From: Candidatus Obscuribacterium magneticum
GTDB lineage: Bacteria; Elusimicrobiota; Elusimicrobia; F11
Length of the DNA stretch: 64,000 nt
Reading direction: 5' to 3'
NCBI GenBank assembly: GCA_020523905.1
Contig: JAJAPZ010000001.1
Coordinates: 62,001 to 126,000 of the forward strand
Shown here: positions 35,150 through 64,000 of the stretch, one piece after another
How the letters are laid out: every line of letters starts with the position of its first letter
Numbering within the stretch: position 1 is the stretch's first letter
Translations under genes and position numbers: made by a program
The notes under the pieces: generated by a model
What the model was told of the DNA's origin: nothing
Seen by the model: only the letters and a program-made list of their open reading frames with translations
Database searches by the model: none

Positions 35150-35162
35150 ACAAGAGGAAAGG

Positions 35163-35715: not shown

Positions 35716-35719
35716 CATT

Positions 35720-37341: not shown

Positions 37342-37360
37342 AGAAACATAGGAGGATTTA

Positions 37361-38136: not shown

Positions 38137-38280
38137 ACCTTTCTTTACTCCTCTTTGATTTTCCCTCCTGCCTAAGAATATTTCCCAACCTCAACTCCGC
38201 TTTGGGAGATGGGAACTTCCTGGATCACCTCTGCGTTTAAAAAGTTAAAGAAACAAAATTGACAAGCGGAGGAGGGTCGT

Positions 38281-39165: not shown

Positions 39166-39173
39166 GGTCCGGA

Positions 39174-39308
39174 ATGAGCACGACCGTCGGATTAGAGGAA
39201 CTCTCCAAAAGCAAACGCCGGCCGTGCGAGGGCGGCGCTCCATCGTTGCAAAACGATTTCATTCTCGCGTCGAAAATCGAGCGGCTCCCCAAAGAATTGA
39301 AATCTTAA
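39174..39308 (+). pseudogene. Truncated pterin-4a-carbinolamine dehydratase-like remnant
   Basis: 44 residues from ATG 39174, beginning 8 bp after the NmrA-like stop. The segment KSKRRPCEGGAPSLQNDFI resembles the N-terminus of 4a-hydroxytetrahydrobiopterin dehydratases (K-C-x-PCEGGxPPL). The frame stops after KELKS, well before the catalytic HHP region of the usual protein of about 95-110 residues. It is either a decayed gene or a short peptide of no known role. Confidence 0.4.
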
Positions 39309-39366
39309 CCGGCGATCCTGGTTAAAACCGTTGATGAAAACAACTGATAATCCTATTCTCTAGTTG

Positions 39367-40638: not shown

Positions 40639-40687
40639 ACAAACTGTTGGTCGTCAACTATTTTCATCCTAACTCCCTTCCTAAAAA

Positions 40688-40716
40688 TTTACATCTCCGT
40701 TACCAAATCTTAATAG
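40688..40716 (+). promoter_or_regulatory. Possible promoter of the giant gene
   Basis: TTTACA at 40688-40693 and TAATAG at 40711-40716 have a 17-bp spacer and resemble a sigma-70 promoter. An alternative -10, TATACT, lies at 40736-40741 without a matching -35. Judged by eye only. Mirror 20083-20111. Confidence 0.3.
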
Positions 40717-40741
40717 GATTTTAATCCCGTATATTTATACT

Positions 40742-40773
40742 GGCTCCAATGTTTCCACAACATTATTGGAGCC
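40742..40773 (+). promoter_or_regulatory. Leader hairpin covering the giant gene's Shine-Dalgarno site
   Basis: GGCTCCAAT (40742-40750) pairs perfectly with ATTGGAGCC (40765-40773), leaving a 14-nt loop. The 3' strand contains GGAG (40768-40771), the only plausible ribosome-binding site for ATG 40777, so the closed stem would hide it. This could throttle translation of an extremely costly protein. Mirror 20026-20057. Confidence 0.6.
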
Positions 40774-40776
40774 GGA

Positions 40777-40857
40777 ATGGACGCCCCTAAAACAATCAAA
40801 AAGGGACTCTCCCTTTTTCTTCTCATCACATTTTTCTGCACCAATTGCGCGTGGGCC
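40777..40857 (+). other. Signal peptide of the giant protein
   Basis: Residues 1-27: a lysine-containing n-region (KTIKK), a hydrophobic core (LSLFLLITFF) and an A-W-A cleavage box before H28. It directs the N-terminal domain across the cytoplasmic membrane. Confidence 0.75.
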
Positions 40858-43800
40858 CATAAACCCCAGGTCTCCATCTGGACCGAGCGGCGAAAGGCGC
40901 TCGAGCACTCATCCGATCAAAATGGCCGCTCCCTCCAACTGGCCCAAATGCCGGCGGTCTTAAACACCCCTTCGCCCGCTTCCCTCCTCAACCGATTGAC
41001 CCCCGACATGACGGGGAAAGCAATGTCGGCGATAACTCAGAGAAGGACTGAAAAATGGATTTCGAATGACGCCCCAAGAAACCTGAAAGATCTTTTGGCC
41101 ATCCTACCTCAAACCTATGGAAACATCCGCAAAGTGACACGGCCTTCCTCCAACGCTTCAACGGGCCCAAGCCGCATTCTCCTCCACATTCAAGACGTCC
41201 ACATGAACGAAGAAGCGCAAACGAACATCGGCAACACGCTTCGGGAGCTCATAGATCGGGGACGCATCGATCTCGTGGCGTTGGAAGGCGCCTTTAATCC
41301 CATCGACCTCTCCGCCTTCCGCGCATTCCCGGACAAAGAGACGATCCGGAAAGTCGCCGACTATCTCTTGAAAGAAAACGAAATCTCAGGCCCCATCCAC
41401 ACCGCCTTCACCCATGAGAACTCCTTTACGCCGTTCGTTGGCGTGGACGATCGGCCCCATTACACCGCCAACGTCAAAGCCGTCCAAGAATCATGGCGAA
41501 TGCGAAAGGGACTTAAAGGACAATTGGAAGAAATAGATAAGGCCTTGGACAAAAAGAAGGCGAACGCCTTCAACAAATCACTGGCTGATTTTGATTCGAA
41601 AATCCAGGCCTATCGCAAGGGTTCACTGAGTCTAGGTGAGTACGTAAAAATCTTGGCCACACGTCATTCCGGCGAAAGCTTGACATGGATTAATGCGCAA
41701 TTGTTTATGGAGGCGTTGTCCCTCGAGTCGTCCCTTGACTTCACCCGGGTCGAGGCCGAGCGGAGCTTCCTCATTAAGGAACTGGTCTCAAAATTGTCCG
41801 AAGCCCAAATTCAATCCTTAACGGAATTAACCGCTTCTTTTCGCCTGGGGCAGATGAACCACGCCGACTTTTACCAAGCCCTAAAAGAGCTGTGCGAGAA
41901 ATCCGGCATCGGCATGTCGAAATACAAAGCGATGTCCTCCTATCTTCAATACGTCCTTCTGGCCGACAGTATTGATGGGGACAAACTGTTGGCTGACCTC
42001 AAGAAGATGGAAGAGGCGGCCTACGCCCGATTGGCCCGAACAGAGGAAGAAAAATCTCTCATCCAAGAGTCCCGGCATCTTTACCTCACCACCAAACTCA
42101 TCGATTTCGCCCTGACGCCGGAGGAATGGGCAGAATACAAATCGTCATTCCGGCGAACGCCGGAATCCAGAAACAGGTTTAATACCTGGATCCCTGCTTT
42201 CGCAGGGATGACGACTTTCGAATCCTTCTACAAAGAAGCCGAAGCGCGGGACCGCGCTATGACCGAGAACCTTCTCAAAGCCATATCAGAAAAAAACGCA
42301 AACGTGGCCGTCCTTGTCACGGGAGGCTTTCACTCTCAGGGGATGAACCGCCTCCTTCAAGACGCGGGGCTTACTACCATCACCTTCGCTCCCAAGATCA
42401 CCAAAATTGAGTCCGAAAGCGGCTCGCCCGCCTCGCCCGCCGTGGCGGGCGGAGCTTCAGCGAAGGCGGGCTCCGCCACCCTCAGCGTTTTCACCCAGGA
42501 AAAAACGCCGCTCGATAAATTGTTCGAAGGCGAAAAGCTGTTCCTAGCCAATGAACCCCTTTCTAATGAAGCTGAGGGCCGGGCCAAAATTTTATTCGGC
42601 GCCGAGGACTTTCGTTTGGGAATCGGCTTCCCGCGCGTGAGCCCGGCGTGGACGTGGGCGCGGGACAGGTTCAAGTGGGCCGGAAAATACGCCCTCCGGT
42701 TCCTGGGCCGCGAAGCCCACGTGGACGTTCTCTACAACCCCGATTTCACATTTAAGGATGTGGTTCTGGTGAAAGGATCCCTCATCACGGCGGCCCTTTC
42801 ATCGGGCGCCATCATCGGCGATCTCTTGAATAAAAACATAAACATCGGGCCCTTCCCCTGGATTCTCCTCCTGGTTTCACTCCTCATTCTTTTTAACACC
42901 AAATTCTGGCCATGGATAACCATGCCTTCCCGCCTTGCTCATGCTTTGGTGAAGGGAGGGGGAGCGACCCCTTCGGGGATTCTTGAGAATGGCCTCATTC
43001 TTATGGCTCAGAAGCACGAAGCCTCGCCTTCCGAACCTTTCCCTCCGCACTGGCTCGAAGTCGCCGCTGTCATGGAAGAACTGGTGGGTGAAATAAAGAG
43101 CGGAGGTTATGAATACGCCGCCTCCGTTGAAGCTATGGTTGGAAAATTTAAAGCAAATTTGGCCACCCATCCGGCCTCCGCCGTTTCCGACGTCGGGGGA
43201 ACGGCCGGCACCGGGGTCGATGAGAACGGTCAGCCGTATTTGGTCTTCAATATGGAACTCATTCATTCCTTCATCACGCTGATGAACAAATACAAGGCCT
43301 CCCAATCCCCGCTCGCTCGACGCACCCGGGACTATCTCCGAGGCCTTCTGGTCAAGGAAAATGTTCACGTCCGAGACCCCCAACCCATTCGCCTCATCAT
43401 GCGATCCATCCGGGAACTGAAAGAGGCTCCCCAGTTTTCTGGCACCACCCCCGATCTTGTGCGCTCCATTATCGCCATCCACTTCCTCGCGGAAAGCGTC
43501 GGTTATGCGGAAATGTTTCGCTATCTCCAATCTCAAGGCTGGACGACCCGGGAATACGACAATGTCATGAACGCCTGTGAAGAACCTTTAAAAAGGCACC
43601 TGCGGCATGTCCGCACCAGCTTTCATCACGCGTCCCGTCCGGCGGCGATGGAAAAAGAGCTTGTTGCCGGCATCCAAAAAGATTTGTTCGATCACCACCT
43701 GGTGGCGCGAGTCCTTCAAGAAAGACAACTCTCGGACCCCATCTCCTTTCTGCTTCAATACGCTTTGGACTGGGAAATTCAAGAGGGGCGCGCCTCATTC

Positions 43801-46800
43801 GAAGACGCGGCGAGTCGGAAGCTCCACGTTAAGCCGCAGGCTTTCTCCTTCGTTTATGACGATGATTTCACATCCGGAAACCGGGTTCTCCTGGATCCTC
43901 GATTCGCTTATTTTCAGGAAGTCCTGGCCGTGGCGTTTTGGCGGGCGGGCTTAGACATGAGAAGAGCTTCCGCCTTTGCCGTCAACACGACATTCGATGC
44001 CTGGCGCTATCAGCACGGCCCCCGCGCTCAAATGATCGACGTTTTCCGTCAAGGCGGGCTCACCCCGGCTGAAGCCGATGCCGTAGCACGCGAGTTCCGA
44101 TTCAACGACGAAGGAAACAAAATCGACAGTCCAATTCATCAACCAACTTTGTCCATTTTTCAGCAGGCGGCGGAATGGGTAGTGAAGCATTTCAAATTGA
44201 CTGGCTGGGCCGCCGGCCTGGTGATTTACGGGACGGCCTTTGTCATCTCACCTCTCTGGGAAGAAGCCGTGTTCCGATCGCTGATGATGGGTGTCTGGGA
44301 ATCAAACTCTTGGGTTGTCGCCTTGCTGTTCTTCGCGTTGCACCTACCCGGCACCATCGCGAAATCTCTTCAAGTGGCACGCGAGCGCGCGGCCCGCGGG
44401 CCGCCAGACTTAGCTCTCTCGCCAAGCCAACACCTCCTCCCATCGCACGTAAGCAGGGAGATCTTCCTTCGTCTCTTCATCCAGGCCCTGGGCACCTCCG
44501 TTCTCACCCTCACTTATCTCATTCTTAATTCCTACGGCATGAACGTTCTCATTCACACCGGACTAAATGTTTTTATTTTTCTTCTACACGCCATTTGGCC
44601 CAGCCTCCCGGACGCCTTCCTTTCAATTGACGGTGAACCTGACCACGGGGGGCAGTCCTCCGACGAAACAAACGGAGAGACGGACATCTCCGATAGTGAA
44701 TCGCACGGAGAAGAATTAGACCTTGACGCTATTAACAAACGCCGCTCCCACAGGTCCCTGCCCAAAAGACCACTTACAAAAGCCGAGAGAGAACTCAGCG
44801 AATATCTTAAACAATTTAAAAAAATGTGTGAAAAAATTAAGCGGCTCCCTGTTTTGGAGGCTTCTTTGAAAGAAATGGGCAAACGGTTTGGGGTTACTGA
44901 ATATGTCGTATTGGTACTCGCGAGAATCCATGGACTACGCCCCCGAGGCCATGTCAGAGAGTGGAAATTTGCCCATCCGGCTTCAGTGACAGAAAAACCG
45001 TCACCCGAAATAGATCCGGCAAAGAAACCCGGAACAATAACGATAAATCGATCACAAAGGGATGTTCTCAAGGGAGAAGCCAAAGTGAAAGGCCAAAAGG
45101 GAGTCCGCCTTTCCTGGATCCGCACCCAAAAGATCACATTACCGCAAAACGACCTCATGACTCTCTTATCCAAATGGGGATCTTTCCTCTATGTAGACGT
45201 AAAAGAGGACACCTTCGCTTCACCCGGCACCGGAGCGCCGGTTTTCATGGTATTTTTCTTCGTCACCTGGTTATGGAATCGCATCTGGGGGCGAAGGGAA
45301 TCCGCGTTACCTGCAAAAACCATAAGTAGAGGGCGTCAAAGGAAAACTCAAGAGAAACCTTCCATACCAACGCCGATCCACACGGGACAAGGCGACATCA
45401 CCCACCCCCCTTTCTCCCTTGCTGAACAAAGGAATGAGCTGGAAATGATCGCTTTCATCCGAAGGCAGGCGGAAATTGTCGCCTCGGAAGTCCTCCAGGA
45501 AAGAAGGCGCGGCCGCCTGGTTCTTCCGTTCGAAATCGGCCAAAAATTCGTCCGCCGGCTTGAATCCCAGTCCACTGCTTCCTCTGAAAATAGATCGGAA
45601 TTATTCCGTGTGCTTGTTCAGCTATATCGGCTGAATGAACAACAAGTCCCGGATTTGGTCGCGGCTCATCCCTCACCGGTCGAACACCTCGTTCAACGAG
45701 TCATCGCCTTCGGCGCCCAGCACATCGAGCGAAGAAGGCACGGCCCCACCCGCCGCGAACTCCTTAAACTTCTTGCCTATCTGACGGCCTCGGCGGCGCT
45801 GCCTTCCGTCGCCACGGCTTCACCGGCCAAAAAAATAGCTCAAGTGAAACAAATGGAATCGGAACTTCAAATAGTCATCGAAGCCTTGAAAAATGAACTG
45901 ATCTATTACGCCAAAATACACTTCGAGTTAATATGGGGACAGGGGCTAGATGTAACCTTTGGAGATTCCTACCTCCTGACCCAACGACGAATCATTGCTT
46001 ATGTCCTCTACAAAACGGTCGAATCTCGGGAATTTGTAAAAGACTTCAAACGGTGGGGTAACCGCAATCCAGGCACGCTCATTGAGCTCGCATTAAAACC
46101 CATCCGTTACCTCGGCGTGGATCCAACGTTACAAACTCCCGATGAGCTTCTAAAATCTTATAAGGCTGAACAAGGATGGTTGGGTATGAACTACTCTCTG
46201 GTCAACAGCCTGGGGAGTAAACCGGGGGCAAACCCCTCTCTGGCTGAACTTTGGTCGATTGGTAACAAATGGGCGCAATTCATGAGAGGCGTGAAACGAT
46301 ATGCCTTGTCTTTGAATTTTGATGAAGCTTATCAACTGCACCAAAAACTGATTCGGCAACCACTAAATTCGCCAAGTGAAATCATGGCAAGTACTTTTGA
46401 GGAGGAACGAACACGGATTCAAACAGCGCTTAGCGAGAATAAATTCCAAACGGATCCCATCGATCGAAGGATTTGGACGTCCGAAGGCTATACCATGAAG
46501 ATTTCTGATGGCCAGCGCAAACTCCTCAACGAGCGCGGTGAACTGGAAGGGAAATTAGAGTCACTCAATACAATAGTGGAAACACTCCGGGCCTCAACAT
46601 CTAAGCCCGAATACACCGTTCAAAAAATCCAGGGGGCGGGCGGTTTGAGCGTTATCGAAGCTTCGGCGGTGGCCGATGAATTCCGTTTTCCAAACTCGCT
46701 CGGTTTTCTCTGGCTCACCAAATACCGCCGTGCCTGGGTCAACGCTCATCCATTCTGGACACTGATGATTGGACTGGCCTCGGCTCTCGCCGAAGGCGGA

Positions 46801-55800: not shown

Positions 55801-58800
55801 CGATACGATGAAAAGCTGATGGCATTGAAAAAACCGAGAACATTTGATTTTACAAATTATGGATGGATTCTCATGGATAGGGTCCTCCAATACCGTGACA
55901 AAGGCCAGGATGTCGGCGCCATTCTCCGCTACCTCCACAGCGTTTCGCCAACCTTCATTGAAGTTGCCGAAGAGCTCATGCCCATACTTGAGCGCATCAT
56001 CGATTTTGTGGCATCCCGCCCCTCTGAACTCATCGGAAGTTTATCCGACTGTATGAGTCGACTCGGGAGCCAAACGTTTAGGGTGAAAAAATTAGCTGCT
56101 GAATCTGATCAAATCCCCAAAAATTTGGGGCTGGAAATTGCCAACGCTAAATCTATTCTCCTAGCCCTGGACAGCCAATTAGGGTCCGCCCGCGCGCGGT
56201 CGCATGAAAATCGCCGGGTCAGTATCGAACCCATAAATGCCATAGCTCGATATTTAGATGACGACGTAGGCCTCAAGGAAATCAGGTTGTGGGTTGATCT
56301 ATTGTTAAAGGGCGACCCCCAATTATTAAAAATGCTACGGGAGACAAAACTTTCGGAGCGGATCGAATCATTTCTTCATGCGCTCTCCCAGCACCGGGAC
56401 CAGTATCCCTTCCCGGGCGGCGATATCGACAGGGCCTTCAAACGCATCCTGGCCTCCCGAGGGATTGACACCGAAGGGGGAGAAAGAAGCGGTACCGGTT
56501 CTCTAGGGGACAGGGTTAAGAAGCAGGTGCAAACGCCAGCGGAGAATGGGGCACTCACCGAAGAGAGTGATCCCTCCTCCATGCTTGTCGCCAACCGCAC
56601 ACGGGCGGAGGCGAAACGGCGTGGATGGACAAATAAATTTTGGACGGAAGTTCTCTTCGCTCCTGATTACGAATTCCTAACCACCTTCCGGCCCGATGTG
56701 CTTATTCCCGATCACCCCGGGCCGTGGCGGAAACACGCGCTGCGCATCGTCGGGCTTTCCGCCATCCAAATTTTTGTCCTCAGCGTCCCCATCCTCATCA
56801 CTTGGGGAACGGGGCTCTTATTCACCGGAAACATCACGGAGATTTTGATTTACGCCATCGGTTATTTCGCGATCGGGGTGGCCTTTGGCCTGGCCCTCAT
56901 CAATCCCTGGCTTCAACTGCGCGGATGGCAGAAGGCGCTGCTCTTTTCGGTTTATCTCCCCAACGTCCTCGGGCATGGGATCTACAACTTCTTTATCCAC
57001 CCGGCGCCGCTGACGAGTGAGGAAATCAGGGGGTTAAGAGACAGTGCCGATGTCGAGAGACACGGCGGGAATTCCACGGAACATTCCTCCAAACAGCGGG
57101 CGAAATCCATTGTCGAACGGACATCGGGAATTCCAGGACGGAAATCCCAAGCACAGGAACGGGAAATTGAAGGGATCGTTGAGTATCTCGTCGAAAAGAA
57201 ATTACGAAAGCACGGACCGCTTCTCATTGCGGTGGATGGAGATCGACCTTCGTTCAATTCCTTTTTCATTGAGGCGTTGGTTGAAAAATTGACCCCACAG
57301 CACAGGGCGTTTGTCATCCACGGACCTCAGCCCATGATCACCCTGCAGGAAAACCCTGAATATTCGGGGAGGGCCCCCTGGAGCGAAACGGCGGAAAAAA
57401 TCCGATACGAGATCGACTCTTGTAACGAAGATTTTATTTTTGTCGAAGGCCCCCGCGTTTTTAATATCTGTCGAGAGACATCCTTCCGGACCGATGACTT
57501 CGACGCGAAAATCCTCGTTCGAGCCGATGACCGCGCCAACGAACTTTTAATTCGTTTGGCTGGAATTAAACGACCCGCAACTTTAGAAGCTATCACACCC
57601 AATATATATCCCGAAGACATCGTGCCCCGTTATGATATCGCGATGAGCGCGAGCGTCGTATTCGGCGACCAGCAGGTTCTGGATTATCTTCCGCTCCAAC
57701 ACGGCCAAAGCATTTGGATCAATCCTTCGATCGGACGAAAACGCCGGGATCTTGAGATCGGCGGGAAAGTGTTTCAAGGTTGCCACCTTGTTTTTCATCA
57801 GGTTCCAGGCGTCTCTGGAGGATTGGCGGTTTCCGACGATTTCGACGAAAATCGCATTCAAGCGATCGAGGCCTTGGGCGAACGGGGGGTTCCTTTTAAC
57901 GGCGAATGCAAAGTCTCCGTCGTCCCCAACGAAGATATTCATATCGCCTTATTCAACGACCCTGCCCGCGTGCAGGGCAACGCCGTCTTTTTTGAACATG
58001 TAAACAGCCAGTTTCGCAGCATCAACCAAAGCGTTCGCTTCTATTTAGTCAATGAAGGTGATTTGGAGTTAATGGAAAGTTCAGACGGTGAGAAACACAC
58101 CGTTTTAAAGCGGGCCCTCGCGATTCAAGGGGGAAAATTGTTTCTTGATGTGTTCGAAAGGCCGCTGTTTTTGCACGCCATCGTGGAGCCGTCCGACTTC
58201 CTGCGCCTTCAAATCGAAAAGACGGACACGCTAATCGTTCCTTCAAGAAAAACACTTGATATGAGCCGGGACCGCCAACGGCAAATGCAACTCTTGTCAG
58301 CGTACGGTTTGCCGGCGGGCGGGGAGCTTAAGCCTCCGACCGTAGATTTAAACGGAGCGAAGGTCCCTTATTTCGTTGAACAACCCATAAAAATTGACAG
58401 TCCGGAATTTCAAAACGCACACGAAATCCGCCTTATCGTCGTGAAAAAGTTTGGATCGAAATCATCCTCATCTTTATCGATTCAATCCGAAATTGCATCG
58501 GTGCCTTTGATGCGGGCGGATGACCCCCCGTTGCGGGCTCGTCTATTTCTGGATGATTATTTAATGGCCCTGCGTGTCGCCCCCCTCCGCCCTCTAACCG
58601 CGGAAGAACGGAAACGGTTTCAGATGAAGCTGCGGTCGCTCGCCATTGAAGCGGCTGATGCGCTGGTCAATCGGGAAGGAATGGAGACGGACGTCTTGGC
58701 TGTTGATTTGGGATTGGGCGAACCCTCCGATAAGGATGGGCTCCCCCGGGTATTCATCCGGGGCGTATCAACAATTTTTGATGTCGATGAGACCATCGAA

Positions 58801-61800
58801 TCGATCTGCGCGGCCCCGCCGCGTCACAAGGAAAAGGAAAGGCATTACCGTTATTTCAAAAAATGTTTCCAGTATATCGTCGCGGCCGCACGAAAATGGT
58901 TCAGAGATCGGCCTGGATCAGAAGCATATGAAGGACCGCTGGCCTGGACAGGACTACCGAAGTCTGACCAGGAGGCTTTGCAATCTCTCTGGTCCGGTTT
59001 GAGCTGGACGGCCGAAGGGCGGCTCGAACTTTCCTGCCGCAAGAACATGGCTCGGTTACAGGAGCTATTCTTCACTCACCGGGGTTTCAACCGCGATTTC
59101 CAATCCATCGCCGCCGGGACATTCAACGAATTGGAAAAGCGGGCGAACGAAGCCTTTGAAAAAATAAGAGCGTTGATGAACGCTTCCGAACTGGAGACTT
59201 CTCAGCGTATGGCGCATAACGCCCTCGATAATCTTCTCAAGCATGGAGAAGGGAAGGGCGCCTTTTTGATGCGTTTAAAGTTTATGGATGAAAAACACGC
59301 AACTTTCACTTTCATCCTGCTTGATCGCGGAGCCGGGTTTGTATCGGAGGATGGCTTGCACGTTCCCATCCATGAAGCTGTCAAACATGGTGTTTCATTT
59401 CGAAACCTCGCTCAGGGGAAAGGCGTCGGCCTTTATGAAATATTTTCCCGAGCAGACGATATGGGCTTGTTAACCGTCGATCGATGCGAAGCCGTCCCGC
59501 AAGCTTATTTTTGGAAGAAAGGGGATCCCGAAGAGGTCCCTTGGACATCGGCTCCTGTTCCAAGCGGAACCCTTCTCGCGTTTCGAAAGAGGATCACGCA
59601 CCAATTGCCGGCCCACCAGCTGCAGAACGCCTATCCCGTTTCTGAAAATCCTTTAGGTTGGCTGCAGGAGTGCATGTTCCATCTAAAGGAAGGAGGGCGA
59701 ATCCTGGGAGAGGATTCCCGCTGGTCCGGGGTGGTGAAAAAAATCGAAGGCTCTCGCAGTCAAATATTATCGCTGTTAGACATCAGTAAAATCGAATTGA
59801 GCGACCACCGGGAAGTGCCCGCTCGCAATATCGAGCGCAATTTCGACACTGTTTATCAAATTCAGGCCGGGCTGGAGCGGCTGATCATGGATGTGGAATC
59901 CAATCATCATTTAACCGACACAAATAAATCCGCATTGGAATCACTTCATGCCGCTGGTAAATTGTTGGAACAATTCGTGGATTACGTCCGAACCGCCAGA
60001 TCCCGTCCGGGCCAATTCGAATTGGAATTTGAACCCTCTCCCGTCCTTGGGCCTTATAATGAAGCGATTTTTACCCAGTTCATTCGGGACACACGCGTCG
60101 TCGAAAAAACTCTTAGACGCCTCTACGGTCAACACGCTCGAGCCTTGGCCATCAAAAAGGTCAGCATCGCTTATTATCACTCGGGAAGTAACCGGGTCGC
60201 TTACGCCTGGCACGTCACCTTTCGGAATCCCTCATTTCCACCGATGAACCTCATTATGAAAGCGAGTTTGCGGAACGGTGAATCCGAGATCATTCATCAA
60301 ACTCAAGCGCGTCTTGCAAAATTTCTTCTGGGAAATCCCAATGATTTTATCGGGGTATTGCCGGACGGCAGGGTCGTCGTCACCGGGCCCTTATTTACAG
60401 GACCGAATTTTCAGGAGATTTTGATCGATCATTATTCGGGCCGAAATCGTCTGCATACCACTTCAGGCCAGCTCTTCGCTATTCAAACCGAAATCGTCCG
60501 AGTCTGCGTGGAAACATGGATGAAGTTGGGGGGGCATTTTATTTCGGACCCCAATCCATCTCAATTCGTCGTGAAGATCACCGATGGCAAGAGCCCCAAT
60601 ATTCGGGTTTGGCTCATTGACAAGGGTGGACTCTCCTCAACGGGAAACCCCGGAATCGACAATCTCGTTCTGGTGCCTCGGGGCGAGTCCGAACTCGCCA
60701 TAGCATTGGAAAAAAGCGAAGAAACGCTGATCGACGATTACAACGGGCTCGCCAATGAGGGGCGTATCAGAGAATTTATAAACGATGCGATCGAGCGTTT
60801 TGAACCAAAAAGGTTGATATTCCGCCTCATCGGCAATATGAACCTCGACGACCTGCCTCCATCGCATCAATTTGAATATTCGTTGGATCCAAAAGCTCTC
60901 GTTTTGGGCGTTCGTAAAGCTTTGGGGAAAGACGGAGCTTGCAGTTTTTGGCGCAATTACCTTCTTACCCGAGTTGATTTCGATGCATTCCGCTGCGAAA
61001 AAGTCGATTTGATTGATGCTGAAGTCAATCGTTTCCTCGCCGACCCGATTGGATATTGGGAGGAAGGAAAGGCAATGGGGTCAGGCTCAACTCTTGTGGC
61101 CAACCGCACACGTGCCGTAGCGGCAAGGCGGGGGTGGACAAATAGATTCTGGACCGAGGTTCTCTTCGCTCCGGACTACGAATTCGTCACCAGCTTCCGG
61201 CCCGACGTCTTTCTTCCCGATCACCCCGGGCCGTGGTGGAAACATGCCCTGCGTACCGTGGGCCTTTCCGCTATTCACGCTTTTGTCCTTAGCGTGCCCG
61301 TCCTCATCACCTGGGGATCGGGACTCCTATTTACCCATAGCTTCGCCGAGATTCTGATTTATGCGCTGGGGTATTCCGCCATTGGGGTGACCTTAGGGAT
61401 GGCCCTCATCAACCCGTGGCTTCAACTGCGCTGGTGGCAGAAGGCGCTTCTCTTTTCCGTTTACCTTCCCAACGTCCTGGGGCACGGCCTCTACAACCTT
61501 ATCTTTCGTCTGGCACCACTCACAGCGGAAGAACCTCGAGGATTAGATCCGGATTCCAAAACCAGAGAAGACCTGGAAGTGGCGCAATTAATCACGAAGG
61601 CGGCAGAAAAAGTGGTGCCGGAAATTATTAGCGCCCAAAATAGCGCCCTGCCGTTAACGGATGAAGAAATAGCCCGAAGCTTTTGGAGCAAGATTCATGC
61701 CACCGTCCGTCCTCAACAAATGGAGTTGGTGCGGTGCGTCCTGGGATCCTTATTGGCGGCAACCGGTAAGGGCCTTCCTCTCGTGACTTCATCCGCGAGG

Positions 61801-64000
61801 CGGGATTCTTCGCCCTTCCTCCAGCAAATTCTGGAAGCGGCCGGCCGGAACCCCGAATCAAGAAAGGGAGGGATGACGCGTCGATTGTTCATGGAAATCG
61901 TCGCTATGATGGGCAGAGCGGGCGGCGCGCCTGTCAATTCGGCATCGCCTCTAATTGAAAAATGGATTAGCGGGGAGGAAAACCGAAAAAAAATTGTCGA
62001 GCACATCCGGCCGATGCTCGTTCAAATCATCCAATCCGCCTTTGCCAGGAGGCAAATAATTTCCAGACCCTCGAGCGATCCCCGGTTTGTTGTTTCTCGG
62101 GGAGACGAAAGATGGAAGATTGCGGGCGAACTCAGCGGGCTGGCGTACCATCCTTTTGTTCCGATAGAAATCACCAATGACCCCGTGAAAACAAAACTTT
62201 TTGAGTCCGTATGGGGCCCCCTGGGCCGTTCCTTTGAGAAAGAGCTGCATGCATGGGTCACGGGAAACAATTCAACCGTTGTTGATCTTTGGACTCTAGC
62301 CAAAAAAATAACCGATGTGGAATCATTTAAGGGGGAACCGAAAGAACCTGATCCCCAGAGACCCTACGGTTGGAGGACATTGGCCCAAGTGTGGATGCAG
62401 GATGTCTACATAAGCTATGTATCCCAATCCTCTCGGGCTCAAAGCGTATTCTTCGACATGAGTCGCTATCCCTACCATCCGGATCGAAGGGCGGGGTGGG
62501 AACTTGTTTCGATTGTGGACGGACTGATTGCCGGAGGATTTCATTCCACAGGAACGGGAAGTGGGATGGAGGCTTTAAAAAGAGTCTGGATAAGATGGGA
62601 CGAGCTAAATACCTCTATTAAAGCGCTCCTAATATCTTTGTCCCCTGAAGAAGCTCAGAACTGGTCCAAGGCTATTCCCTCTTCTGAACGTTTTTCAATC
62701 CGCCCACCCACATCTCACGGCCAACCGATGACCGCCATCGATTACCTCGAACGTCATCTTCAAAACGAAATTAAACGGGTCAAAAGAGATCTGGCTGAAA
62801 TAAAGCGAGCGGGGTACGACGACGTGCTCAGAAAAGTCTTTCGGCCAGAGGGCTATTTCACCTCGAACAAAAACGAAAGGAAACTCCTGAATGATGGCGA
62901 ACGATTGATGAACCGGAAAGATGAACTTGAGGCCCGCCTCGCCACGGTTCTGACCTGGAAAAAAGCCCTGGCGAAGGGATCAGAGGCGAAGGGGTCAGGT
63001 CTTGTCGTGACCAGACCTGACCCCTTCGCCTCCTTTGGATTAATCGCCAACCGCACTCGGGGGCAGGCGGAGCGGCGCGGGTTAAACCCGTACGGATTCC
63101 GGACGGAAGTGCTCTTCGCTCCCGATTACGAATTCATCGCCACCTTCCGGCCCGACGTCCTTCTTCCCGATCACCCCGGGCCATTGTGGAAACACATCCT
63201 CCGCGCAGTGGGGTTTTCTCTCATCCAAACCTTTGTCTTCAGTGTTCCCCTCCTGACCACCTGGGGAACGGGGCTCTTATTCACGGGGAGCACCGCCGAG
63301 ATACTGATCTACACCCTGGGATATTTCGCCATCGGGGTGGCCTTTGGCCTGGCCCTCGCCAACCCCTGGCTCCAACTGCGTTGGTGGCAAAAGGCGCTCC
63401 TCTTCTCCGTCTATCTCCCGAACGTCTTCGGGCACATGCTGTACAACCTCGTCTTCCGATTCGCGCCCCTAACGTTGGAAGAGAAACCGGCGACAGGAAC
63501 CGATCCCATCGCCATTTTCAAAAGCGAGATTCGGGGGAAGCTGGTGGAATTATCCAAATCGCTCAAGCAAATGCGGTTTCAATCCTACGGCAATGATAAC
63601 AAGAGAATTTTAAAAATCCTTTCCCAAACCACGGAATTACGGCACGATCTCGCCAAATTTATTGAAGAGAAGGGAGATCCGAAGTTAGACACGTTGAAAG
63701 ATTATCTGGCTGGAGTGATTCCACCGAGGCGGCTTACACGGATGGAACATTATTTCGGGGAGGAAGAACCCTGGCGAGTAAGGCTAACATATCGAAGAGA
63801 TTACACTGCGGAGATAATTGATATCTTTGTTGAGTCAATTGATGGGAACCCTCAACTTCTAGAGGCCCCATCGCATGACCGTTCCTTCATAAACAGGATC
63901 ATTGACAAGGCAAAGGTCCGGGCCGAATTGAACCGGGCTGGCGCAACAAGCATGTTTCCTTTCTATCTCGATGTCGGTTATGGTCGGCCTTCGGCTCCTC
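40777..64000 (+). CDS. Giant exported multi-domain membrane protein, 3' end beyond the window
   Basis: Open from ATG 40777 to the last base without a stop: at least 7,741 codons. There is an in-frame TAG upstream near 40711, and ATG 40777 is the first start after it, 5 nt after GGAG. Sampled positions from 41281 to 63961 stay in one phase and give sensible protein throughout. The first 27 residues are a signal peptide (KK, then LSLFLLITFF, AWA cleavage). Order of recognisable parts: TraB/Tiki-like (about 130-540), CPBP protease (about 1140-1265), Tat-like segment (1658), membrane blocks (about 1980-2180, 3260-3520, 3750-3800, 4200-4600), sigma-R4-like (about 3020-3095), HExxH (3377), kinase-like (about 5470-5600), GHKL fold (about 6120-6240), and three membrane modules (5269, 6773, 7422). 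An Omnitrophota-type giant protein is the best comparison. Overall function unknown. Confidence 0.9.
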   Translation, partial: MDAPKTIKKGLSLFLLITFFCTNCAWAHKPQVSIWTERRKALEHSSDQNGRSLQLAQMPAVLNTPSPASLLNRLTPDMTGKAMSAITQRRTEKWISNDAPRNLKDLLAILPQTYGNIRKVTRPSSNASTGPSRILLHIQDVHMNEEAQTNIGNTLRELIDRGRIDLVALEGAFNPIDLSAFRAFPDKETIRKVADYLLKENEISGPIHTAFTHENSFTPFVGVDDRPHYTANVKAVQESWRMRKGLKGQLEEIDKALDKKKANAFNKSLADFDSKIQAYRKGSLSLGEYVKILATRHSGESLTWINAQLFMEALSLESSLDFTRVEAERSFLIKELVSKLSEAQIQSLTELTASFRLGQMNHADFYQALKELCEKSGIGMSKYKAMSSYLQYVLLADSIDGDKLLADLKKMEEAAYARLARTEEEKSLIQESRHLYLTTKLIDFALTPEEWAEYKSSFRRTPESRNRFNTWIPAFAGMTTFESFYKEAEARDRAMTENLLKAISEKNANVAVLVTGGFHSQGMNRLLQDAGLTTITFAPKITKIESESGSPASPAVAGGASAKAGSATLSVFTQEKTPLDKLFEGEKLFLANEPLSNEAEGRAKILFGAEDFRLGIGFPRVSPAWTWARDRFKWAGKYALRFLGREAHVDVLYNPDFTFKDVVLVKGSLITAALSSGAIIGDLLNKNINIGPFPWILLLVSLLILFNTKFWPWITMPSRLAHALVKGGGATPSGILENGLILMAQKHEASPSEPFPPHWLEVAAVMEELVGEIKSGGYEYAASVEAMVGKFKANLATHPASAVSDVGGTAGTGVDENGQPYLVFNMELIHSFITLMNKYKASQSPLARRTRDYLRGLLVKENVHVRDPQPIRLIMRSIRELKEAPQFSGTTPDLVRSIIAIHFLAESVGYAEMFRYLQSQGWTTREYDNVMNACEEPLKRHLRHVRTSFHHASRPAAMEKELVAGIQKDLFDHHLVARVLQERQLSDPISFLLQYALDWEIQEGRASFEDAASRKLHVKPQAFSFVYDDDFTSGNRVLLDPRFAYFQEVLAVAFWRAGLDMRRASAFAVNTTFDAWRYQHGPRAQMIDVFRQGGLTPAEADAVAREFRFNDEGNKIDSPIHQPTLSIFQQAAEWVVKHFKLTGWAAGLVIYGTAFVISPLWEEAVFRSLMMGVWESNSWVVALLFFALHLPGTIAKSLQVARERAARGPPDLALSPSQHLLPSHVSREIFLRLFIQALGTSVLTLTYLILNSYGMNVLIHTGLNVFIFLLHAIWPSLPDAFLSIDGEPDHGGQSSDETNGETDISDSESHGEELDLDAINKRRSHRSLPKRPLTKAERELSEYLKQFKKMCEKIKRLPVLEASLKEMGKRFGVTEYVVLVLARIHGLRPRGHVREWKFAHPASVTEKPSPEIDPAKKPGTITINRSQRDVLKGEAKVKGQKGVRLSWIRTQKITLPQNDLMTLLSKWGSFLYVDVKEDTFASPGTGAPVFMVFFFVTWLWNRIWGRRESALPAKTISRGRQRKTQEKPSIPTPIHTGQGDITHPPFSLAEQRNELEMIAFIRRQAEIVASEVLQERRRGRLVLPFEIGQKFVRRLESQSTASSENRSELFRVLVQLYRLNEQQVPDLVAAHPSPVEHLVQRVIAFGAQHIERRRHGPTRRELLKLLAYLTASAALPSVATASPAKKIAQVKQMESELQIVIEALKNELIYYAKIHFELIWGQGLDVTFGDSYLLTQRRIIAYVLYKTVESREFVKDFKRWGNRNPGTLIELALKPIRYLGVDPTLQTPDELLKSYKAEQGWLGMNYSLVNSLGSKPGANPSLAELWSIGNKWAQFMRGVKRYALSLNFDEAYQLHQKLIRQPLNSPSEIMASTFEEERTRIQTALSENKFQTDPIDRRIWTSEGYTMKISDGQRKLLNERGELEGKLESLNTIVETLRASTSKPEYTVQKIQGAGGLSVIEASAVADEFRFPNSLGFLWLTKYRRAWVNAHPFWTLMIGLASALAEGGLAIGLLHFGTLATFIFSQGIPFDLGSTGIVSYALAGSWLTILTWFHLKLEENHPDNRIRGSPLPNALTHALVFSVYLLVPVINLAQIIPFQIPLYFALAIHLLYDTRQIIRWKGDPDPKAFIEFARQWNRKFSRAWIHMRKAQGLFAFFIAAVFLIFALIIDPTMALASTPFLTAIYLQGNEGGKEKPTLEDWYRAHMPTSPAEKKKWISTTLALLFLRIIPVRLAIILIQAVRKDAVPFSSQTQQPWADDSLKPIRDVLWGLPAVSPEGRPMNVLEYLSQTANRKLGLEEAYKETRKRSQVLTGLLDRFMFSYLMESLLADPAQRDEARQLLGDATHQTDILTPDEKAVALALASSLQPDYSQVSQTTNGEYGAEKIKEVLFRYKNNKTHGAYSKIRKTIRDNAPLASRWQAMLQKAGWDEKALTPAFFRWARRRQIFESFDIQVISRLFLFNSRNIPRWGDGLLPLATLQRLLADYLTGVSFDEMSNTARDLSPEAEKLLASRKTVQLWMEGYPGVVEHLKTVLDDSSRLGQLFFLIRPFETEAQAIRDDSSGDRNVAERIKDLGKPRSTAATILTLALRLASTQPAAEKISLTYERALHTAMESPTTNLSSPAIVRVFIEGLRSYDRDEATLSNILIPIFRLATYLPGLMSTEDTADFLFETMIRCEPHTTDALMKSLAQATQAEIGQPLLSTLYNNMLKRVYAPIRLLAKKESRRLIGRKMPALDTAERFDILKARRLQDEHFRRLAQRDGIVLEFLGSESQPGLWPEEKVMHHIAKRYAEYLQSDRRPYGIPMENLMDAARDALLKLGYNFDPPESMRIPFESLKDKTEGERIAATLEERQKTLESEIEILAAKSEETKAQLEILGMGSLAAASDPFQQKRLQFELAGLAKGSTIRRQEQGYNRALLEIIGNYRKGDVARAAEIIKTAEKIAKDYRSAKLTSLFARYLDTQIKTLWKQHRGQKRTMERRVKSLDAPMENAKDSDLLFGKAFADPQSKASLEMFFSQEPEVQARVLDQMADILDPVERRIVQLRFGLDPFYRGFELEYDDIATILAFENPAGTALSCQGVEMRFNKTVMPKFTHAVMAASKAKAGRAWDKFIEGLWSQKPVEPEPFVTFVQKTEILLTIGQHLTLPVLPVWEGKIIHILVDEWSPAIQRPKSPSSRYLPPDPRSADTAMPYDVFLNVHVVIRVPKKGFTRHPSAIFYVQFQKSADGKIRQVQTDNLLEPEESPPTVSARPAPSSKASQTFVVAFLSVFIAAQGIHTSLSLLLAFAVITFSLCIRAFSWHIAELILHGKIFPVLSKEPGLLYVDTKSNQIHFNFKIFNLTLARLIRSGGRERIWGVGLAAVGYLFTLAGLVFSFHHELIHKIKGFKSELAAYGLELLILFTAIALTYNAGIPWYVPWGVLLSFNALSASLSIKDITKSLGISETAATELTGRQKRAQQRRFESRLTTIVGLALIIGLLAAGILINIHILPNQKFINVGEGRLLLFVVGYTLLLFLLKWILTKTRQPGRPDLERDMFVNFFSWIPSLADSSLNAWNLRAEKEILKSLVSRGFQKTHLLKNQGLANRPTADLKSDIRDFRIRSAADLRLFLILAGLLVKGEQKRRERKSIAPTTKGKIDRLIVTLLSGEISIKKATADFLDLFQQELGIARLKSWRDIFKEPIQNLLEDYSRSFHARFSAHLPSSNSTVPPRSRGEVATGDSPWRDRRGASVLTPPLSPPHPGREIIFDRTPLIKKVIYGVLSFDTTRFIFSYGFWLVMGLLAWGPTGAVLCFLLIRYLVDPVYKGLLANLKGSIQGEKGIIPLSPLPYGLNKTLPQTNWAEIQRAYDELISLSFKEERKNPWFRLILLEKVLRKIPGQEDLVALVTALKTEVASRAARSTRRETWDSLMKTARDLGWDLSQPEIRFLLRALELPRRRPSRWSMNPQQMRLQVQSKGPMSIFLQILADSLRRAPLFTLRCVVSIPTSVLRALCRWFGLDLCDRLLFALNNKWGTLLGFAAKTHPSQRVDSREMTQRPPFRDPSENEFGKGVLINQLEQLNQPGLKPLIEFLRVRVTVKLEPFIDKSWLPWQMRLIHWRQIAPLPDGRYEFDLENNTLLLSSRMPDDLNLLAALKLLSLAFRHEVIRGEKQNLHLAEPRIFPFIWATYRTLIKKRWAEAVTFIQSFWGGNKKASRAEDSFKDREPILGLLYLISVFPHTLWGRVYSSPQKPGVLYSYRPPPTLYPFVKARENFMVALYLILNWIFNGFIGRTNQKEIGGLKPRSHSRVVILWGLLRPVLSHLGLAIAFASFFIAIFAGLVLHLDLSFLNAWAIWFKEVLSFVNFLYLGDLVNLVWGVCQWAYEGLHYIMAIPLHHLKEFFVWIWAFLAPIRIFFVQTFIPLFYQYIIPTFLFLWGLLYGYLVYKARIGKFLIQNASNIAAAPFVSVYALSTRALYLVRDVPVNEAWIEKVSDGIRCVFHWTRFFWIPLFILLYGFLHLTGLACLIAILGLISYPFLDLRTVIVVIQSLGIPFNPIMYVGITAVMIGLPYSWFYWTFEKFIKVAFREVTPRKIRNTFAAWASLLLILTVAFPLGVRYVLKQNPFHSAAVTRHNEWAAVSLWRQAELWTQTPLLKAALDETLSEMKKEASKELAPEEARALELQIKEFQEKLSGGQVAVLRDRLLGSPFKGLEVIADPHSGYPIIIPSQVSSKHQTHSEKLTLHSSLALRRAVTPVWLKAHKGEIFRALENKNPALYRNAVFFEYFFQLVGDERKSLYQALTPEEWKTILIHMMDTIEDPIVYGSFSANYRQQTLAADVLINFFTDSHDGEYQQLSRELGPRLSDMDVSNAIADIRIKINRLKKKIGTGSQGATSSSGAPVFMVFLFVNWLWNLIWGRRKPASSSARVVSPELKAGDREFTNEDWERGRTLVEVILPGLWYGNIPGNVEEFIHDMRHLCIYAFRDSAVTFSGFKYDPLYHRFLGDDVLLVCARMLESFRSLAQAMSDLPPADRYDEKLMALKKPRTFDFTNYGWILMDRVLQYRDKGQDVGAILRYLHSVSPTFIEVAEELMPILERIIDFVASRPSELIGSLSDCMSRLGSQTFRVKKLAAESDQIPKNLGLEIANAKSILLALDSQLGSARARSHENRRVSIEPINAIARYLDDDVGLKEIRLWVDLLLKGDPQLLKMLRETKLSERIESFLHALSQHRDQYPFPGGDIDRAFKRILASRGIDTEGGERSGTGSLGDRVKKQVQTPAENGALTEESDPSSMLVANRTRAEAKRRGWTNKFWTEVLFAPDYEFLTTFRPDVLIPDHPGPWRKHALRIVGLSAIQIFVLSVPILITWGTGLLFTGNITEILIYAIGYFAIGVAFGLALINPWLQLRGWQKALLFSVYLPNVLGHGIYNFFIHPAPLTSEEIRGLRDSADVERHGGNSTEHSSKQRAKSIVERTSGIPGRKSQAQEREIEGIVEYLVEKKLRKHGPLLIAVDGDRPSFNSFFIEALVEKLTPQHRAFVIHGPQPMITLQENPEYSGRAPWSETAEKIRYEIDSCNEDFIFVEGPRVFNICRETSFRTDDFDAKILVRADDRANELLIRLAGIKRPATLEAITPNIYPEDIVPRYDIAMSASVVFGDQQVLDYLPLQHGQSIWINPSIGRKRRDLEIGGKVFQGCHLVFHQVPGVSGGLAVSDDFDENRIQAIEALGERGVPFNGECKVSVVPNEDIHIALFNDPARVQGNAVFFEHVNSQFRSINQSVRFYLVNEGDLELMESSDGEKHTVLKRALAIQGGKLFLDVFERPLFLHAIVEPSDFLRLQIEKTDTLIVPSRKTLDMSRDRQRQMQLLSAYGLPAGGELKPPTVDLNGAKVPYFVEQPIKIDSPEFQNAHEIRLIVVKKFGSKSSSSLSIQSEIASVPLMRADDPPLRARLFLDDYLMALRVAPLRPLTAEERKRFQMKLRSLAIEAADALVNREGMETDVLAVDLGLGEPSDKDGLPRVFIRGVSTIFDVDETIESICAAPPRHKEKERHYRYFKKCFQYIVAAARKWFRDRPGSEAYEGPLAWTGLPKSDQEALQSLWSGLSWTAEGRLELSCRKNMARLQELFFTHRGFNRDFQSIAAGTFNELEKRANEAFEKIRALMNASELETSQRMAHNALDNLLKHGEGKGAFLMRLKFMDEKHATFTFILLDRGAGFVSEDGLHVPIHEAVKHGVSFRNLAQGKGVGLYEIFSRADDMGLLTVDRCEAVPQAYFWKKGDPEEVPWTSAPVPSGTLLAFRKRITHQLPAHQLQNAYPVSENPLGWLQECMFHLKEGGRILGEDSRWSGVVKKIEGSRSQILSLLDISKIELSDHREVPARNIERNFDTVYQIQAGLERLIMDVESNHHLTDTNKSALESLHAAGKLLEQFVDYVRTARSRPGQFELEFEPSPVLGPYNEAIFTQFIRDTRVVEKTLRRLYGQHARALAIKKVSIAYYHSGSNRVAYAWHVTFRNPSFPPMNLIMKASLRNGESEIIHQTQARLAKFLLGNPNDFIGVLPDGRVVVTGPLFTGPNFQEILIDHYSGRNRLHTTSGQLFAIQTEIVRVCVETWMKLGGHFISDPNPSQFVVKITDGKSPNIRVWLIDKGGLSSTGNPGIDNLVLVPRGESELAIALEKSEETLIDDYNGLANEGRIREFINDAIERFEPKRLIFRLIGNMNLDDLPPSHQFEYSLDPKALVLGVRKALGKDGACSFWRNYLLTRVDFDAFRCEKVDLIDAEVNRFLADPIGYWEEGKAMGSGSTLVANRTRAVAARRGWTNRFWTEVLFAPDYEFVTSFRPDVFLPDHPGPWWKHALRTVGLSAIHAFVLSVPVLITWGSGLLFTHSFAEILIYALGYSAIGVTLGMALINPWLQLRWWQKALLFSVYLPNVLGHGLYNLIFRLAPLTAEEPRGLDPDSKTREDLEVAQLITKAAEKVVPEIISAQNSALPLTDEEIARSFWSKIHATVRPQQMELVRCVLGSLLAATGKGLPLVTSSARRDSSPFLQQILEAAGRNPESRKGGMTRRLFMEIVAMMGRAGGAPVNSASPLIEKWISGEENRKKIVEHIRPMLVQIIQSAFARRQIISRPSSDPRFVVSRGDERWKIAGELSGLAYHPFVPIEITNDPVKTKLFESVWGPLGRSFEKELHAWVTGNNSTVVDLWTLAKKITDVESFKGEPKEPDPQRPYGWRTLAQVWMQDVYISYVSQSSRAQSVFFDMSRYPYHPDRRAGWELVSIVDGLIAGGFHSTGTGSGMEALKRVWIRWDELNTSIKALLISLSPEEAQNWSKAIPSSERFSIRPPTSHGQPMTAIDYLERHLQNEIKRVKRDLAEIKRAGYDDVLRKVFRPEGYFTSNKNERKLLNDGERLMNRKDELEARLATVLTWKKALAKGSEAKGSGLVVTRPDPFASFGLIANRTRGQAERRGLNPYGFRTEVLFAPDYEFIATFRPDVLLPDHPGPLWKHILRAVGFSLIQTFVFSVPLLTTWGTGLLFTGSTAEILIYTLGYFAIGVAFGLALANPWLQLRWWQKALLFSVYLPNVFGHMLYNLVFRFAPLTLEEKPATGTDPIAIFKSEIRGKLVELSKSLKQMRFQSYGNDNKRILKILSQTTELRHDLAKFIEEKGDPKLDTLKDYLAGVIPPRRLTRMEHYFGEEEPWRVRLTYRRDYTAEIIDIFVESIDGNPQLLEAPSHDRSFINRIIDKAKVRAELNRAGATSMFPFYLDVGYGRPSAP
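41662..41679 (+). repeat. Partial dispersed repeat in the giant gene
   Basis: CGTCATTCCGGCGAAAGC, the 5' half-element of the repeat that is complete at 42143. In frame (RHSGES). Mirror 19120-19137. Confidence 0.6.
42143..42213 (+). repeat. Complete dispersed repeat inserted in frame
   Basis: 71 bp bounded by CGTCATTCCGGCGAACGCCG and the inverted end CGCAGGGATGACG, with TCCAG...CTGGA inner repeats. This is the well-known 'sharply palindromic' dispersed element type that translates as WIPAFAGMT. Here it is read through as part of the giant protein (KSSFRRTPESRNRFNTW, then IPAFAGMTT). Mirror 18586-18656. Confidence 0.85.
42421..42477 (+). repeat. GC-rich palindromic repeat in frame
   Basis: GCCCGCC-GT-GGCGGGC (42435-42450) followed by GGAGC...GCTCC (42451-42474). 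Translated as a low-complexity Ala/Gly/Ser stretch (SPASPAVAGGASAKAGSA) between the TraB-like domain and the next segment. Mirror 18322-18378. Confidence 0.75.
44176..44613 (+). other. CPBP (CAAX/Abi-type) intramembrane protease domain
   Basis: All three family motifs are present in order and spacing: WEEAVFRSLMMG (E1162, E1163, R1167; EExxxR), FFALH (F1185, H1189; FxxxH), and HTGLN (H1260, N1264; HxxxN). They lie on hydrophobic helices (WAAGLVIYGTAFVISPLW, WVVALLFFALHL, LTLTYLILNSY). CPBP members are glutamyl intramembrane proteases of the Rce1 type, involved in prenyl-protein or peptide maturation. Intact motifs suggest activity. A proline/arginine-rich insert separates motifs 2 and 3. Confidence 0.75.
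45223..45306 (+). other. GAPVFMVFFF-WLWN-IWGRR membrane-anchor module, copy 1
   Basis: Residues about 1483-1510: a single hydrophobic helix ending in WLWNRIWGRR. A near-identical copy at 55387-55470 reads WLWNLIWGRR. Nucleotide identity is also high, so this is a copied cassette. Confidence 0.65.
45733..45810 (+). other. Internal twin-arginine-like signal segment
   Basis: Residues about 1653-1678: GPTRRELLKLLAYLTASAAL followed by PSVATAS. T-R-R-E-L-L-K is close to the S/T-R-R-x-F/L-L-K Tat consensus, with a moderately hydrophobic h-region and an A-T-A box. An export signal 1,650 residues into a protein hints at fusion of formerly separate genes, or at a membrane re-entry helix. Confidence 0.4.
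46722..47310 (+). other. Multi-pass membrane block
   Basis: About five to six hydrophobic helices, among them PFWTLMIGLASALAEGGLAI, SYALAGSWLTILTWF, THALVFSVYLLVPVINL, PLYFALAIHLLY and GLFAFFIAAVFLIFALI. No transporter signature is visible. Confidence 0.65.
49416..49443 (+). repeat. 28-bp perfect palindrome in frame
   Basis: Half-site GGGGTCACTCGCCG and its exact complement. Translated as GSLAAASDP in a coiled-coil-like region. It shares ACTCGCCGCGGCGAGT with the axis of the giant inverted repeat at 30399/30400. A decayed relative (GGGGCACTCACC...GAGTGATCCC) lies at 56548-56574. Mirror 11356-11383. Confidence 0.85.
49840..50055 (+). other. Sigma-70 region-4-like segment in the giant protein
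   Basis: Residues about 3022-3095: ILDPVERRIVQLRFGLD, then EYDDIATILAF and GVEMRFNKTVMPKF. The order L-x-x-x-E-R-x-I-V-x-L-R-F-G-L, 'I-A-x-x-L' and a final basic helix copies region 4 of sigma factors (ERxVIxLRFGL, EIGxxLGVT, RVRQIExxALxKL). The stretch is soluble, not membrane-spanning. Similarity noted by eye; DNA binding in an exported protein would be surprising. Confidence 0.4.
50551..51330 (+). other. Membrane block with an HExxH motif
   Basis: Several helices flank FSFHHELIHKIKG (H3377, E3378, H3381). HELIH sits at the end of the helix GLAAVGYLFTLAGLVFSF and before GLELLILFTAIALTYN, with a glutamate in KSELAAY seven residues after the motif as a possible further ligand. This arrangement resembles membrane zinc metallopeptidases such as M48 or M50. 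Assignment to a family is not possible by eye. Confidence 0.45.
51900..52007 (+). repeat. Long dispersed repeat inserted in frame
   Basis: Contains CCTCCCC...GGGGAGG, GTCGCCACAGGCGAC, CTCGCCGTGGCGAG and a final CCCCTCCCC...GGGAGGG, i.e. a string of nested hairpins. It is read as STVPPRSRGEVATGDSPWRD, then RRGASVLTPPLSPPHPGRE, a translation typical of such repeats. It joins two hydrophobic/soluble parts of the giant protein. Mirror 8792-8899. Confidence 0.8.
53386..54570 (+). other. Large multi-pass membrane block
   Basis: About ten hydrophobic helices in about 395 residues, for example GLAIAFASFFIAIFAGLVLH, TFIPLFYQYIIPTFLFLWGL, FFWIPLFILLYGFLHLTGLA, AILGLISYPFL and AWASLLLILTVAFPLGV. Rich in W, F and Y. 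It is followed at 54570 by a soluble, charged region. Confidence 0.7.
55363..55375 (+). repeat. Dispersed GGTACCGGTTCTC element, in frame
   Basis: Encodes GTGS just before the second WLWN anchor. Same frame as the copy at 56491. Mirror 5424-5436. Confidence 0.7.
55387..55470 (+). other. GAPVFMVFLF-WLWN-IWGRR membrane-anchor module, copy 2
   Basis: Residues about 4871-4898, next to the in-frame GGTACCGGTTCTC element at 55363. Copy of the module at 45223. Mirror 5329-5412. Confidence 0.65.
56491..56503 (+). repeat. Dispersed GGTACCGGTTCTC element, in frame
   Basis: Encodes GTGS, 84 nt before the first repeated membrane module. Mirror 4296-4308. Confidence 0.7.
56581..57024 (+). other. Repeated membrane module A
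   Basis: Residues 5269-5416. Begins LVANRTRAEAKRRGW, continues WTEVLFAPDYEF, RPDVLIPDHPGPW, two to three membrane helices (SAIQIFVLSVPILITWGTGL, ILIYAIGYFAIGVAFGLALI), then NPWLQLRGWQKALLFSVYLP and PAPLT. Highly similar to modules B (61093) and C (63040) at protein and DNA level. No known family recognised. Mirror 3775-4218. Confidence 0.85.
57190..57560 (+). other. Degenerate nucleoside-kinase-like region
   Basis: GPLLIAVDGDRPSFNSFFIE (residues about 5480-5499) aligns by eye with the start of uridine/cytidylate kinase-type P-loops (I-DG-xGSGKST-xxE), but GSGKST is replaced by RPSFNS. Later IFVEGPRVF and KILVRADDRANELLIRL echo the EG and lid regions. If correct, this is a non-ATP-binding relic reused as a scaffold. 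Low confidence. Confidence 0.3.
59080..59520 (+). other. GHKL (HATPase_c-like) ATP-binding fold
   Basis: N-box-like AHNALDNLLKHGEGKG (N6152, K6155, H6156), a G1 box LLDRGAGF (D6183, G6185, G6187) and a G2 box QGKGVGLYEI (G6214, G6216, G6218) in the correct order, with an ATP lid between them. The position of the usual N-box glutamate, four before N6152, is N6148. This suggests nucleotide binding with altered or absent hydrolysis/phosphotransfer. No H-box dimerisation domain with a phosphorylatable histidine is obvious upstream. Mirror 1279-1719. Confidence 0.6.
61093..61530 (+). other. Repeated membrane module B
   Basis: Residues 6773-6918, LVANRTRAVAARRGWTNRFW to LAPLTAEE. Same layout as modules A and C. 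Immediately preceded by GGGGTCAGGCTCAACTCTT, a sequence resembling the palindromic repeat before module C. Lies in the single-copy part of the window. Confidence 0.85.
62983..63032 (+). repeat. 20-bp-stem hairpin repeat in frame before module C
   Basis: GAGGCGAAGGGGTCAGGTCT (62983-63002) pairs perfectly with its complement at 63013-63032 around a 10-nt loop. A diverged tandem start (GGCGAAGGGATCAG) lies just upstream. Translated in frame as EAKGSGLVVTRPDPFAS. The GGGGTCAGGTCT type resembles REP elements mobilised by REP-associated transposases, but no such transposase is in the window. Confidence 0.85.
63040..63480 (+). other. Repeated membrane module C
   Basis: Residues 7422-7568, LIANRTRGQAERRGLN to FAPLTLEE. 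Same conserved FAPDYEF, PDHPGP, WGTGLLFTG and NPWLQLRWWQKALLFSVYLP stretches. Directly follows the hairpin repeat at 62983-63032. Confidence 0.85.

Follow-up and report, generated by a model that had tools for sequence, protein, structure and literature searches.

Giant proteins are already known from both Elusimicrobiota and Omnitrophota (PMC11573180; PMC12057145; PMC10066038). A protein of Ca. Velamenicoccus archaeovorus in Omnitrophota reaches 39,678 aa (PMC10066038), and giants of sister phyla have been suggested to act in predation (PMC10066038; PMC12057145). For Elusimicrobiota, huge proteins (>5,000 aa) were counted in UniProt (PMC11573180), and giant genes of Elusimicrobia are cited in PMC12057145. 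With middles that resemble nothing recognisable, the giant genes of both phyla have resisted interpretation.

The gene described here lies in the window, i.e., the whole stretch of 64,000 nucleotides that was analysed. It resembles the Omnitrophota giants in its frame of more than 20 kb, its multiple predicted transmembrane (TM) helices, its few recognisable domains, and its poor conservation. Unlike those giants, it has an Elusimicrobiota host rather than an Omnitrophota genome. In the present case, a head domain, a promoter box, and a C-terminal tag unite many such genes per genome. These genes form a large and apparently undescribed family with a common box, start domain, and end tag, and with a middle that differs from gene to gene. 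The common ends and the box offer a handle on such proteins.

The giant reading frame and its contig

A single frame runs without a stop through 7,741 codons from 40777 to 63999 (Table 1). Traced past the window on contig C49, it closes with a TAA at window-equivalent position 77,073, which results in 12,098 residues and a gene of 36.3 kb. The start codon is accompanied by a GGAG Shine-Dalgarno sequence and a signal peptide. The coding pattern is steady across the 36.3 kb (G+C by codon position 0.57/0.41/0.58), and codon position 2 has the lowest G+C in every 1,500-bp tile. The initial annotation, which had reported a frame open to the window end with a proper start, a signal peptide, and plausible protein wherever it was sampled, and had proposed extending the contig to the stop, is thereby confirmed: the open frame is real and represents one intact gene. 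Frames of this length do not occur by chance. Readthrough beyond the TAA was ruled out; a separate, by eye SGNH-hydrolase-like gene begins just downstream and shares the frame by happenstance.

Positions 1-60798 of the window form a perfect inverted repeat in which position x pairs with 60799-x (0 mismatches over 30,399 positions), and tRNA-Pro genes flank its centre. C49 measures 184,798 bp (2 x 92,399) and is mirrored end to end where compared (50,198 of 92,399 positions, 0 mismatches). We read this symmetry as a fold-back of the assembly, which doubles the gene on paper and leaves the frame itself unaffected. Two genes in a tail-to-tail mirror were considered and discarded, the perfect symmetry of contig and window being a fold-back artefact; since C49 is self-mirrored, there is one gene copy, and the minus-strand frame is the same gene. 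Another contig, C82 (99,198 bp), also looks folded back, being symmetric without a spacer at the family matches examined. Both contigs may inflate the contamination estimate of the MAG, which stands at 13%. Outside the window, the C49 arm carries on the other strand (68520-81932) a 4,471-residue frame with a signal-peptide-like start and an FlgD-like C-terminal end; head and tag are absent from it (tail score -10.8).

Table 1. Positions of features in the window. Residue numbers refer to the giant protein.
Feature	Position	Strand	Remarks
Perfect inverted repeat	1..60798	.	no spacer; centre 30399/30400
Mirror-image copy of giant gene	1..20022	-	assembly artefact
Promoter box TTACATCTCCGTTACCAAATCTTAATAGGATTTTAA	40689..40724	+	four half-sites at 0/11/21/32
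Hairpin	40740..40775	+	12-bp stem; encloses Shine-Dalgarno GGAG (40768-40771); z = -3.2
Giant ORF	40777..64000	+	runs on past window to TAA, window-equivalent 77,073 (12,098 aa)
Signal peptide	40777..40857	+	residues 1-27; predicted cut after CAWA
Conserved head, EreA/ChaN/Tiki-like fold	40858..42576	+	residues 28-600
Dispersed-repeat-like stretch (ESRNR...WIPAFAGMT)	42163..42216	+	in frame within variable head loop
CPBP/Rce1-like intramembrane protease domain	44218..44574	+	residues 1148-1266; E 3e-5; E 1.4e-6
Membrane module copy 1	56545..56976	+	residues 5257-5400; 71-82% identical to copies 2, 3
Weak GHKL/HATPase_c-like stretch	59203..59448	+	residues 6143-6224; E 0.039, under Pfam cut-off
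Membrane module copy 2	61087..61485	+	residues 6771-6903
Membrane module copy 3	62995..63435	+	residues 7407-7553

A multi-copy family with common ends and promoter box

Matches to the giant's first 600 residues were present in 20 of 98 relatives (own genome counted). A 106-residue head probe gave 14-36 matches per genome in ten family-bearing genomes, including 21 in the own genome (two of them mirror duplicates), and seven in one more distant genome. Heads recur at the starts of long frames, and 82 of 85 members that were inspected have a hydrophobic N-terminal stretch. In a genome of 100% completeness, 25 members account for 84,138 codons, corresponding to 7.0% of 3.6 Mb. With 12,098 aa, the giant is the longest member found; a 4,771-aa protein of a relative has the head and the C-terminal end in common with it. 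More distant head homologues elsewhere in the phylum start frames of up to 12,027 codons. Among those readable to their stop, several have ILGAA, ILSAA, MLAAA, or MLMSA as their last residues; the remainder agree poorly with the tag. For an orthologous giant pair (from another genus, not this gene), dN/dS was 0.32 over 8,424 codons and 0.20-0.48 in all 17 bins, indicating that family giants are under selection along their length.

Named relatives were Elusimicrobia in 49 of 51 cases, and the remaining two, from Omnitrophota, are distant (26-28% identity). An Omnitrophota origin was therefore dismissed, and the host was placed in Elusimicrobiota. The initial annotation was right about a giant, multi-membrane-spanning protein with a signal peptide; the phylum that it named for such giants, Omnitrophota, is not that of the host. 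It had also called the architecture unrecognised. In the literature searched, we found no described family with a common promoter, head, and tag (bioRxiv was outside the scope, and a preprint is possible). The architecture is no one-off: many copies with shared ends make up the family, and the giant is the longest seen among them.

The head comprises about 570 residues, with D140, H142, E170, G516, G517, and H519 conserved. An alignment of 42 heads retained the motifs HIQDVH, ALEG, and GGFH, with H142 and E170 invariant and H519 kept in at least 90% of the sequences. Foldseek searches with the AlphaFold model (mean pLDDT 80.6) returned weak matches (best E = 0.02, probability 0.90); the top-ranked structures were EreC-like, with 3B55, 2RAD, and EreC among the early ones and HopBA1 at rank 15. 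Pfam PF04187 (ChaN) scored 23.6 bits on the giant, below the gathering score of 27.7, and matched 24 of 42 members at E <= 0.01. Sequence searches of the head against the PDB gave no match, and NCBIfam holds no family matching it. Hence, "EreA/ChaN-like" is a lead with support, membership not being settled; the conserved H-E-H presumably corresponds to the catalytic residues of the EreA/ChaN/Tiki superfamily. The in-frame stretch in the variable loop of the giant's head resembles a dispersed intergenic repeat. Similar-looking insertions occur in the same loop of other members, and a second repeat-like stretch, PLSPPHPGRE, is read in frame in the giant at 51979-51993.

Upstream of family starts lie half-sites (TTAC/TTAA) with 11-bp spacing, and the full box, as at the giant, is formed by four TTAM/TTAA half-sites at 0/11/21/32. 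Pairs of period 11 precede 62 of 82 members compared to 5.6% of other frames; periods 11 and 10 were enriched, periods 7, 8, 9, and 12 were not. Searched genome-wide in three genomes and blind to the family, the four-site pattern gave 38 distinct sites, 32 of which precede head-bearing family genes, against 0 control matches. Of the other six, two precede genes with another head, two precede MiaB/RimO-type methylthiotransferase genes, one precedes a gene for another secreted-looking protein, and one lies at a contig edge. The second head type is represented by L185/L191 (G001:C19) and L172/L192 (G002:C12); the radical-SAM methylthiotransferases, RimO- and MiaB/MtaB-like by eye, are L187/L203 (G002:C50) and L196 (G000:C104). 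Although it lacks the family head, the G001 protein found through its box (L185/L191) closes at 8,109 residues with a tag of 16.4 bits, which we regard as the best single test linking box and tag. Across the class, nine of 108 genomes have the box; all nine are family-bearing, and no genome lacking the family has it. The strict box was missing in this search from family-bearing genomes of the families f4 and f12; f4 genomes carry a repeat variant, TTACAAAAAGT, upstream. Tandem direct repeats with 11-bp spacing, as found here, characterise an OmpR/PhoB-type box. Between box and start of the giant, a predicted hairpin would cover the Shine-Dalgarno sequence.

To characterise the C-terminus, 74 complete members were aligned flush at the stop and compared with 232 other frames from the same loci. 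This revealed a tag of the pattern R-x-I-x2-[QSA]-A at the very end. Terminal alanine was found in 62 of 74 members (84%) versus 21 of 232 controls (9%; p = 3e-34), arginine at -7 in 51% versus 10%, and a hydrophobic residue at -15 in 72% versus 25%. Leave-one-out scores exceeded 4 bits for 81% of members and for 0.8% of 1,906 control frames. All four alanine codons and all three stops are in use, and this diversity places the conservation at the protein level. The giant's own end, ...IDSATAAAKAA, scores 17.7 bits, the giant itself being part of the training set. The tag persists after unrelated or disordered-looking preceding sequence, and one of the two distant Omnitrophota head relatives ends in ...LREYLVAA. 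A C-terminal domain homologous across all members was considered and rejected: no more than 24 of 77 were recovered by an iterative profile, and our claim is confined to the last 15-20 residues. The C-terminal alignment of members is diverse, at 14-22% identity.

The variable middle

Middles are mostly unique: of the giant's sequence after the head, just 18% matches other members. At least one TM segment was predicted in the middles of 73 of 74 complete members, and 20-31 hydrophobic segments in the giant (simple scale, two thresholds). Regarding the protease and GHKL domains noted initially, the CPBP domain holds, and GHKL is reduced to a weak trace. Beyond the window, Pfam/NCBIfam searches revealed WD40 at residues ~9612-9801, and TrmB (~10677-10828) and AroE (~11105-11375), both under equivalog cut-offs; PPDK was a marginal NCBIfam match, also below cut-off. 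By eye, the AroE-like part lacks the NTDG aspartate (NELG) and retains the lysine; elsewhere in the own genome, it best matches a head-carrying frame of 3,117 aa (C33, L122). Middles of nine other members contain AAA, helicase, protein kinase, transketolase, CheR, and glycosyltransferase domains. By sequence, the middle is gene-specific, membrane-spanning, and built of shuffled and eroded domains. Some of these resemble cytoplasmic enzymes, which is odd for an exported chain and counts against the explanation that we favour.

Proposed function and comparison with known systems

We consider it probable that the giant is an intact export protein of 12,098 residues from a co-regulated, many-copy family of giant and presumably envelope-directed mosaics in Elusimicrobiota. 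Box, signal peptide, head, gene-specific middle, and tag are legible in the sequence, and box, head, and tag occur together. From these we infer how the system might work. A predicted OmpR/PhoB-type regulator would turn the family on via the half-sites spaced by 11 bp, and the signal peptide would hand the nascent chain to Sec. Outside the inner membrane, the head would fold as a putative hydrolase (conserved H-E-H), and the middle would cross the membrane by way of its hydrophobic segments. The tag, a predicted C-terminal amphipathic helix with a free terminal alanine, could be read by a carboxylate-recognising partner, with a PDZ/tail-specific protease or an assembly factor as candidates, and would thus mark the completed chain for sorting or maturation. 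As a surface repertoire, the variable middles may serve in contacting other cells. More tentatively, the family might represent a new route of export or maturation, i.e., a dedicated giant-mosaic regulon, taking up several percent of the genome, whose new C-terminal sorting tag is read by one machine and whose middles are freely exchangeable cargo.

Given the mirror-image artefact in C49 and the contamination of the MAG, the frame could instead be an assembly chimera or a decaying fragment of a polyprotein, which we consider highly improbable. Its codon phase is constant, head and tag sit at opposite ends of one frame with the box ahead of the start, another genus has a homologue with the same ends, further members reach 8,100-10,900 aa, and the orthologous giant pair is under purifying selection. 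It is known that C-motifs recognised by ClpX end in LAA. A small-residue end with a free alanine carboxylate would suit an ssrA/ClpX-like degradation signal that clears mislocalised giants rather than sorting or maturing them. However, position -3 of the tag is S, I, R, or Q and not L, position -2 is Q, S, or A, and the arginine at -7 and the hydrophobic residues at -5, -11, and -15 reach far upstream, so that we regard this role as unlikely. An equally doubtful alternative is a polymorphic-toxin or predation system, in which a conserved leader would deliver a variable effector payload to other cells. The conserved head, hypervariable middle, and many copies would agree with it, as would the predatory roles proposed in the sister phyla; polymorphic toxins, however, vary at the C-terminus, which is conserved here, and none of the Pfam matches found in the middles is a toxin domain.

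For the export family that we favour, ends and box define membership without the middle and predict members blind, as for the 8,109-aa protein, and the box would indicate which giants switch on together. The purpose of giant bacterial genes is thereby turned into testable questions on one regulator and one C-terminal tag.

The Elusimicrobiota giants of PMC11573180 and PMC12057145 share phylum and size class with the family and very likely include members of it; as far as searched, these papers deal with prevalence and describe no family united by its ends, box, and tag. Polymorphic toxin systems (PMC3482391) are likewise exported, as the family would be, with a conserved N-terminus and a hypervariable remainder, but the family has a conserved C-terminus and no swappable toxin tip. 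With the EreA/ChaN (Tiki) superfamily (EreC 6XCQ, B. cereus 3B55/2RAD, HopBA1 5T09, PF04187), the head shares the H, E, and GGFH motifs; it is strongly divergent, contains a large helical insert, is fused to giant mosaics, and matches under formal cut-offs. PEP-CTERM and GlyGly-CTERM are short C-terminal signals common to otherwise unrelated exported proteins. The tag is alike in being such a signal; unlike them, it has no TM anchor with a basic cluster, and would instead be an amphipathic helix ending flush in alanine.
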